Origin: Candidatus Rokuibacteriota bacterium
GTDB lineage: Bacteria > Methylomirabilota > Methylomirabilia > Rokubacteriales > CSP1-6
DNA length: 35,814 bases
Direction of reading: 5' to 3'
Assembly: GCA_003220495.1 (NCBI GenBank)
Contig: QHSP01000103.1
Coordinates: 1 to 35,814 of the forward strand
Each line of letters opens with the position of its first letter. The stretch's first letter is position 1. The notes under the pieces were generated by a model. It made no database searches, was not told the origin of the DNA, and worked only from the letters and a program-made list of their open reading frames with translations. Both the position numbers and the translations under genes were made by a program. Below, in pieces: positions 5,720-27,351 of this stretch.

Positions 5720-6500
5720 CTGTTAGCCCCCCGACGCGGCGCGCCCCCGCGGCCCGCAGCGCGCGCGCGCACGCGTGGAGCGTCGCGCCGGTCGTGAGGA
5801 CGTCGTCGACCAGGAGAAGGTGGCGGCCGGCTACGTGATCCGACGCCCGGAACGCGCCGCGCACGTTGGCGCGGCGCTCCGCCGCCGAGAGGTCGCTCTG
5901 CGGTCGGGTCGACCGGGTGCGCGCGAGCCAGCCCGGGCGCGTCGGCACATCGAGCCACCGTCCGATCCGCCGGGCCAGCAAGGTGGCCTGGTTGAATCCC
6001 CGCTCGCGCTCACGCTCCCGGGCGAGGGGCACCGGGATCAATGCGTCGATTCCGTCGGGCAACGACGCGACGCATTGCTCGGCCGCGAGATCGCCGAGCG
6101 GGCGCGCGAGCGCGCGACGGCCCGCGAACTTGAAGGCGTGGAGGGCCTCCCGCAGCTCGCCCTCGTAGACCGCCGCCGACCGCGCGTAATCCAGCGGCAG
6201 CGCTGTCGTCGCGCACGTCGCGCACGGGGATACGGCTGGGGGTCCCACTCCGCTGCTCGTGGGCCCCGCACCCCCAGCCGTATCCCCGTGCGCGACGCGT
6301 GACGGTCGTTCATAGGATGTCGCCGAGACAGCGGGTGCGGCGCCGCAGACGTCGCACCACGGAGGACCGAGGCGAGTGATCGCGCTCCAGCACTGACCGC
6401 ACAGAGGGTCGCGGCGGCCGGCGCCGAGCGTCGTCTCGCACACGGGGCACAGTGCCGGGAAAACCAGATCGAGCGCCGCCAGGGTGAAGCTCGAGAGCAC
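5691..6500 (-). CDS. comF: ComF family phosphoribosyltransferase-like protein, carrying an in-frame palindrome
   Basis: ComF proteins act in DNA uptake or primosome rescue; the role here is inferred from family. 269 aa from GTG at 6500, 10 nt after the TPR gene stop; no good Shine-Dalgarno is visible, so the start is provisional. The N-terminal zinc finger has the four expected CxxC pairs (Cys18/21, 34/37, 49/52, 93/96). The C-terminal half has FNQATLLARRIGR, RTRPQSDLSAAERRANVRGA and the PRPP loop LLVDDVLTTGAT. Between Cys52 and Cys93 there are about 40 residues, where the family normally has roughly 6-10; the excess coincides with the inverted repeat at 6216-6297 (about residues 68-95). Reading frame and downstream motifs stay intact, so the protein is probably made. 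Confidence 0.88.
6216..6297. repeat. Perfect 28-bp inverted repeat inserted in frame in comF
   Basis: Arms 6216-6243 and 6270-6297 are perfect reverse complements over 28 bp. The 26-nt centre contains a second small stem (CCCAC at 6244-6248 with GTGGG at 6259-6263). The outermost 9 nt of the left arm, CGTCGCGCA (6216-6224), are repeated directly outside it at 6207-6215. The element is translated in the comF frame without a stop and encodes a Gly/Pro/Ala-rich segment that includes SSGVGPPAVSPC. It looks like an inserted palindromic element rather than a terminator, since it lies inside a gene and lacks a T tract. Confidence 0.9.
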
Positions 6501-25806: not shown

Positions 25807-27351
25807 CTAGGGCTGCGACGCCGTTTCGGCGGCCAGCGCCGCGGCGGCAGCTTCCGAGTCGGGCCCCTGCAGGACCAGGGTGCGGTAGCGGGAGGCGAGC
25901 GATCGCGAGGCCTCGAACCTTCCCCCTGCCGCCGCCTCGCGTTCGGCGGCGCCGAGCACCGCCTCGAGCAGGCGGTCGAAGTGGGCGGTCATGCGTCGCC
26001 GGACGTCCCCGTAGCCCTTGACGAGCTGCGCGGCCCGGGCAACCTCGCAGGCCAGCGCCGTATCCCACGTCGCGCACCGCGCGACCGCGGCCAGCCAGCG
26101 GTCCATTCGCGCGTGCTCCTCGCGAGCGCGGTACGAGACCGGGCGCAGCGGCCGTAGCCACGTGAGCATCCAGACGCGGAAGAACCCGCTCACGGTCGTC
26201 GTCTTCACGTGCTGCCCGAGCGTCGGACGCCCGTGCGGCCAGCGGCGCTCGGCCCAGCGCGCGAACGGCGCGACCAGGCGGTGGGGCAAGACGCCGTAGA
26301 TCTCGTCGAGGTCCGGCTTGAGATAATCGGTCACGACGATCGCGCCCGCGCCGACGCCCTTGTCCCGACGGATCCGCTCGAACCGGCTGGCCCTGGTCTT
26401 GAGCTGAGCCACGCGCACCGCGTCCTCGTACGTCATCCACACCGCCAGGTGCCGCGCCACGAGTCGCGCAAGCTCGAGATCCCCGCCCTCAACAAACGGC
26501 CGCAGCCGCCCGAGATACTTCTCCGCATACGCCCGGTCCTGGTAATCGATGAGACGCCCGAGAGCTTCGCGCACAATCGCCCTAAGCCCCTCGGGGAAGC
26601 CGGCCGCCGTCCGCTCGACGTCGGGGCGGGTGACTGCGGCAGGGTCCGCGGCAGGCCCCGGGGAGGGGTCCGTGGCGAGTGGGGTTCCGACGCCACGCGA
26701 CCCCTCCCCGGGGCCTGCCGCGGACCCTGCCGCCACCGCCAACCCGGCTTCGAACCCACGGAGGTTGGCTTCGACCTGAACGCCCTTGGCCTGGATAGCC
26801 TCGCGATACGCATCCCCACGGAGCGGCAGGACGCCGGAGCCCGCCAGCGCGCCGAGCAGGACGGCGTTCGCTTCGGTTCCGTGCTCGCGCGCGAGCGCCA
26901 GCGCGTCGAACGCGATGAGCCTCTTCGAGAAGGCGCGCGCCGCCGCGTGCAGCTTCTCGATCGGAAAGATCCCGCGGCCGGTCACGATCTTCTCGTGGAT
27001 CGAGTACAGCCGGTGGGTGCTGGCGATGATCGTCGTCCGGCCGGGCGACGGGAAGCCGAGCTCGATCGAGCGCCCGACCTCGAGGAATTCCGGGGCCAGA
27101 AGGACGTCGAGGGCCCCCGGGACGGGATAGAGCGAGAAGATCGGCGTGTCGTCCGCCGCGGGGTTTCGCTCGCCCGAGAGCTCCACGTAGTACGTCGTGG
27201 ATCCCGTCCGCTGAGCCACCCCGGGGATGGAGGTGCCGTGGACAGGATATCCGTCGATCAGCGCGGCGTCGACGATCCAGTCGAGGAGCACGCCGCCCCC
27301 CTGCCCGCCGACGGCCGGGACCAGGAGGCTCAGGAGAGCGGCGTCGGTCAC
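25807..27351 (-). CDS. iorB: Indolepyruvate ferredoxin oxidoreductase beta subunit, long form with C-terminal extension
   Basis: 514 aa. Works with IorA to oxidatively decarboxylate aryl pyruvates from aromatic amino acids, making aryl-acetyl-CoA and reduced ferredoxin. Residues 1-200 are the gamma-type domain (VPAVGGQGGGVLLDWIVDAA, GTSIPGVAQRTGSTTYYVEL). Residues 245-490 match the extra helical domain of long beta subunits (DUF6537-like, from memory), with YQDRAYAEKYLGRLRPF and KPDLDEIYGVLPHRLV. Between them a 35-bp-arm palindrome (26636-26733) is read in frame as about residues 207-239. GTG at 27351 overlaps the iorA stop as GTGA. The gene ends 14 nt from the convergent response regulator. 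Confidence 0.88.
   Translation of the reverse strand: MTDAALLSLLVPAVGGQGGGVLLDWIVDAALIDGYPVHGTSIPGVAQRTGSTTYYVELSGERNPAADDTPIFSLYPVPGALDVLLAPEFLEVGRSIELGFPSPGRTTIIASTHRLYSIHEKIVTGRGIFPIEKLHAAARAFSKRLIAFDALALAREHGTEANAVLLGALAGSGVLPLRGDAYREAIQAKGVQVEANLRGFEAGLAVAAGSAAGPGEGSRGVGTPLATDPSPGPAADPAAVTRPDVERTAAGFPEGLRAIVREALGRLIDYQDRAYAEKYLGRLRPFVEGGDLELARLVARHLAVWMTYEDAVRVAQLKTRASRFERIRRDKGVGAGAIVVTDYLKPDLDEIYGVLPHRLVAPFARWAERRWPHGRPTLGQHVKTTTVSGFFRVWMLTWLRPLRPVSYRAREEHARMDRWLAAVARCATWDTALACEVARAAQLVKGYGDVRRRMTAHFDRLLEAVLGAAEREAAAGGRFEASRSLASRYRTLVLQGPDSEAAAAALAAETASQP
26636..26733. repeat. Perfect 35-bp inverted repeat inserted in frame in iorB
   Basis: Arms 26636-26670 and 26699-26733 are perfect reverse complements over 35 bp. 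The 28-nt centre holds an inner stem CGTGGCG (26671-26677) with CGCCACG (26691-26697) around a 13-nt loop. The element is open in the iorB frame and encodes a Gly/Ala/Pro/Ser/Asp-rich segment including SRGVGTPLATDPSPG. It sits in the linker between the two conserved domains. Arms and centre have the same plan as the comF palindrome. Confidence 0.92.

Follow-up and report, generated by a model that had tools for sequence, protein, structure and literature searches.

The question raised by positions 1 to 35,814 of contig QHSP01000103.1 (assembly GCA_003220495.1, a Candidatus Rokuibacteriota bacterium; this whole 35,814-nt stretch is hereafter the window) is how an IorB-type gene came to carry a 98-bp palindrome that is translated in frame, and why the two arms of this palindrome match. 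The IorB palindrome is not a one-off but one copy of a dispersed Rokubacteria family with a conserved loop, a membership that a preliminary description of the locus had overlooked. Our reading, which we hold to be probably correct, is that a palindromic element dispersed in Rokubacteria, and born in non-coding sequence, inserts into genes and the gaps between them, persists where it can be read in frame, and has its arms homogenised by template switching.

The host gene product corresponds to NCBIfam PRK08312 ("indolepyruvate oxidoreductase subunit beta family protein"). Its POR (gamma) domain stops at about residue 204 and DUF6537 begins at about residue 256, with the palindrome occupying residues ~207-239 of the linker between the two domains. 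The features of the gene and of the element are as follows (window coordinates):

25807..27351, minus strand: IorB-type host gene (indolepyruvate oxidoreductase subunit beta family; POR gamma domain and DUF6537), 514 aa
26636..26733, minus strand: whole palindromic element, 98 bp, in-frame translation AAGSAAGPGEGSRGVGTPLATDPSPGPAADPAA
26699..26733, minus strand: 5' arm (sense strand), 35 bp
26636..26670, minus strand: 3' arm (sense strand), 35 bp, perfect complement of the 5' arm
26691..26697, minus strand: 5' side of the inner stem, CGTGGCG, 7 bp (sequence and fold)
26671..26677, minus strand: 3' side of the inner stem, CGCCACG, 7 bp (sequence and fold)
26698, minus strand: single bulged C beside the inner stem (sequence and fold)
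26675..26690, minus strand: conserved family core TCGGAACCCCACTCGC (loop and first stem bases), stop-free in all six frames

Sequence and fold thus agree with the preliminary description in placing perfect 35-bp arms, separated by 28 nt, and a 7-bp inner stem in frame within iorB, and the extremely stable hairpin that it had expected is borne out as a prediction (RNA fold of -112 kcal/mol, z = -12.5). In Markov-resampled windows (n = 20) the longest perfect palindrome reached 10-14 bp in each case, while in 1.25 Mb of stretches from the source genome perfect arms outside this family and a second palindrome family (see below) did not exceed 17 bp. Since chance palindromes reach only ~14-17 bp, the 35-bp palindrome of IorB far exceeds chance expectation. 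A 17-bp perfect palindrome with an 18-nt loop was found in an intergenic gap (L244:6908-6959) and is likely an ordinary terminator. When the whole window was compared with Rfam at the gathering score, two tRNAs were recovered, and no family matching the element.

The 6-Mb source genome holds exactly four occurrences of the loop TCGGAACCCCACTCG, each forming the apex of a long palindrome; the perfect arms measure 35, 30, 40 and 33 bp and are unrelated in sequence. The exact core, which across copies generalises to the asymmetric TCGGAAC[CCC/GAC]ACTCGC, was found in 17 of the 95 genomes of a phylum-wide scan (the genomes surveyed being metagenome-derived). Sixteen of these belong to one family, and the only one outside it holds a chance match without a palindrome; the reversed control pattern occurred nowhere in the source genome and once across the 95 genomes. 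A covariance model built from 34 aligned copies (match threshold E<=1e-3) gave ~120 matches in 22 of 57 family genomes, with a maximum of 24 in G018 and none in the remaining 35, a count from which palindromes with other loops are missed by a core-based search. The structure line of this model is poor, as two subfamilies differ by a bulge, and the model served as a finder only; in the window it matched positions 26653-26714 (61.3 bits, E 8.7e-9). A viral origin was considered and set aside, the exact core not being found in the viral contigs scanned, and a search of the accessible literature on palindromic or repeat elements in Rokubacteria returned nothing relevant.

Genic copies accounted for 30 of 37 in the first typed set and for 40 of 60 further model matches, the two sets having a few copies in common. 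Orientation relative to the gene was evenly divided (20:20 in the second set), all six frames were used, and intergenic copies lay mainly in short gaps separating co-directional genes. In addition to IorB, the hosts include MutS2 (ahead of the Smr domain), RsmE, dihydrolipoyl acyltransferase (E2, in the linker behind the lipoyl domain), an ABC-F ATPase, a heme-type radical SAM protein and an MFS transporter. At the RsmE and E2 sites both frame and orientation are the same in several genera, indicating insertions of long standing that were passed on by descent. Members of g1, g4, g5, g14 and g16 also carry the IorB copy, other relatives being without it, and judging from this distribution that copy is apparently old and inherited in several genera as well.

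Several further palindromes were seen in these genomes. One, in the window at 6216-6297, has perfect 28-bp arms and a 26-nt loop of different sequence, gave no covariance-model match, and lies in frame in a ComF-like phosphoribosyltransferase open reading frame, between the two CxxC knuckles of a zinc ribbon. The second dispersed family of the source genome comprises L128:9647-9758 (C114), L133:8341-8488 (C81) and L246:15537-15677 (C130), with 59-74 nt loops starting CTGTGTAGGCAG and arms of 25-41 bp or more of site-specific sequence; its copies are intergenic or, in L133, overlap a predicted gene end. In the E2 gene of G008 (L206) a palindrome of >30 bp with the unrelated loop GGAACCTGAGAACTACGACAGGTTCC occupies the linker that holds the core element in G000 and G003, and in the MutS2 gene of G006 (L138) 25-bp arms are perfectly paired and the conserved core is lost.

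Empty sites are provided by the radical SAM gene, which holds a copy in G007 and is clean and empty, with intact flanks, in six genomes of the same genus (G000, G001, G003, G005, G006 and G008). Filled and empty sites differ by 78-87 bp net for a 91-bp palindrome, and in this GC-rich sequence no clear target-site duplication was seen. The MFS site (G004 vs G002) is too divergent for an empty site to be defined. IorB linkers that contain the element are 47-57 residues long (48 in this gene, from the same anchor), and those lacking it mostly 31-39, although a few element-free linkers, unrelated or degenerate in sequence, are equally long (44 in G006, 52 in G025 and 72 in G007). These lengths favour the proposal that the interdomain linker accepts extra residues, and speak against the alternative that the palindrome is an ancestral protein segment, since most homologues lacking it are shorter at this point.

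The net gain in IorB is nevertheless only ~15 residues for a 33-residue palindrome, about half of its length, suggesting that the arms partly overwrote host linker DNA. In RsmE, the stretch from the core to GPEGG equals in length that of outgroups without the element, and the 3' arm in MutS2 ends in PR.VA.E, host residues conserved across the family; at these old sites, therefore, one arm sits on host positions, a feature that the fresh radical SAM insertion does not display. The candidate rule that arms generally arise as an inverted duplication of host flank at insertion is contradicted by the radical SAM empty site, and copying of host flank would be retained only as later outward growth, as in RsmE and MutS2. 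Two copies in G007 have ~20 bp of inner arm in common but not the outer arm, which suggests that the moving unit is the core with its inner stem. It is quite possible, though on balance doubtful, that the asymmetric loop is the only constant part of a mobile hairpin whose stem, after insertion, would be rebuilt and lengthened from adjoining host DNA by template switching, with the linker continually rewritten on both sides.

The arms themselves evolve together. Identity between outer arms averaged 0.895 within a copy, compared with 0.76 for the same arm at the same site between species, a value barely higher than the 0.73 between unrelated copies. Among orthologous copies, 177 pair positions had changed on both sides, keeping Watson-Crick pairing, vs 145 on one side, counts drawn from pair comparisons that have lineages in common and are not independent events. 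Ratios of two-sided to one-sided changes between G000 and G003 were 6:1 in MutS2, 5:1 in RsmE and 5:1 in E2, and 4:1 in MutS2 between G002 and G004. Selection on RNA would favour G-U pairs, whereas a DNA-copying process would not. Sense-strand mispairs in the arms of typed genic copies amounted to 15 G-U vs 16 A-C (23 vs 28 in the second set), and the lack of a G-U excess indicates that pairing is maintained at the DNA level. We infer that the arms are homogenised by template switching in the inserted hairpin rather than kept as a selected mRNA hairpin; the same process has been put forward for other palindromes within coding sequence (PMC6649704) and for RNA hairpins (PMC8794818).

According to the reading of a dispersed element with template-switched arms, the mobile piece would be a short hairpin, made up of the core and ~20 bp of inner stem and moved by some enzyme. 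After insertion, template switching during replication within the hairpin would copy one arm onto the other, and the arms would change in concert and extend outward across adjoining linker DNA. The IorB copy would in this manner have added its ~15 residues to the linker, most likely without benefit to the enzyme. Four points weigh against this reading. Neither a target-site duplication nor a mobilising enzyme was identified, and at the radical SAM site nearly all of the palindrome is extra DNA, so that there both arms arrived together. The frame varies from species to species at MutS2 and ABC-F, and independent insertion into the same linker may have recurred there. Lastly, core orientation is constant at the RsmE, MutS2, IorB, E2 and ABC-F sites. 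Intrastrand switching would leave spacer orientation unchanged. Some template-switch routes, though, invert the spacer (PMC8604942, PMC8794818), and inversion of the loop was not seen at these orthologous sites.

The same constant orientation, together with the preserved Watson-Crick pairing and a core that is 0.885 identical at orthologous sites (0.80 for coding flanks), would also fit a core acting as a hairpin-recognition site for a host protein, such as a recombinase, a hairpin-binding protein or a replication factor, with selection on DNA structure keeping the arms paired. We consider this unlikely, given that copies decay or drop the core yet retain their arms (MutS2 in G006, E2 in G008), that 35 of the 57 family genomes are without the element, and that its hosts are unrelated genes. 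Somewhat less plausible still is a conventional miniature inverted-repeat transposable element (MITE), whose arms would be terminal inverted repeats and whose ends would be the target of a transposase. The element's size and palindromic form, its dispersed copies and its empty sites all agree with a MITE, but here conservation is lowest at the ends and highest at the centre, outer arms differing between copies where a MITE would have conserved terminal repeats, and the radical SAM site offers no clear target-site duplication.

That the hairpin is the point of the element, being selected in iorB mRNA and governing translation or mRNA decay, as the preliminary description had supposed, now seems very improbable. 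The predicted stability of the fold and the conserved pairing with two-sided changes are what such a role would lead one to expect, but the element stands in opposite orientations and six frames, in many unrelated genes and in the gaps between genes, sense-strand G-U is not favoured over A-C, and several iorB orthologues are without it. An assembly or amplification artefact, conceivable for uncultured, metagenome-derived genomes, is scarcely credible for in-frame orthologous insertions with species-specific arms in many independently assembled genomes.

Among known systems, the REP/RAYT pairs (REP, repetitive extragenic palindromic) resemble the element in being short dispersed bacterial palindromes. 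Y1 transposases move REP elements. Y1 (PF01797) was present in 2 of 22 element-bearing vs 9 of 35 other genomes (Fisher p 0.17), and was absent from the source genome and from the copy-richest genomes G018, G073 and G074; mobilisation by Y1/RAYT was accordingly rejected, as the presence of Y1 does not track the element. REPs are extragenic, 20-40 bp long, and marked at one end by a GTAG or CGTC tag (PMC3733652), unlike the Rokubacteria element, which is mostly intragenic and has no conserved end: an alignment of 34 copies, covering up to 24 nt from the core, showed no conserved foot of this kind.

A likeness in how the arms behave is found in the coding palindromes of Nematomorpha mitochondria, long perfect inverted repeats within translated genes whose arms evolve in concert and for which template switching was proposed (PMC6649704). 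In the available part of that account they are not dispersed, no conserved loop is reported, and their arms encode conserved residues, whereas the Rokubacteria arms mostly encode linkers. Quasipalindrome correction and related template switching likewise equalise the arms of inverted repeats and leave two-sided Watson-Crick changes (PMC7202029, PMC8604942, PMC8794818). Such two-sided changes are those found here (177 vs 145), but quasipalindrome correction is described as a mutation process; its substrate in this case would be a mobile element, in which it would fix arms particular to each site.

A parallel is provided by the Rickettsia palindromic elements (RPE; Ogata et al. 2000, 2002), palindromes of ~100-150 bp found in frame in unrelated protein genes (PMC10969869). 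As far as that source describes them, both are dispersed palindromic DNA lying in frame in unrelated proteins and seemingly tolerated, that is, in-frame selfish DNA. The Rokubacteria element differs from RPE, so described, in phylum, in the conservation of only a 15-nt core, in arms that are site-specific and co-varying, and in using six frames and both orientations where RPE yield a conserved peptide from one preferred frame. The scan for the core pattern covered genomes of the Rokubacteria phylum and viral contigs. As far as sequence features can tell, the element thus fits neither the conserved peptide of RPE, nor the conserved ends of MITEs, nor the tag of REPs. With dozens of orthologous insertions across genera, one can trace directly how such an element is born, spreads and decays, and by what mutation process its arms are kept matched. 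The insertions also offer a clean natural data set in which template-switch conversion in bacteria could be measured, and a source of fast-changing protein linkers. In-frame palindromic insertions in proteins are known mainly from Rickettsia, and the free-living, GC-rich Rokubacteria of soil add a separate case.
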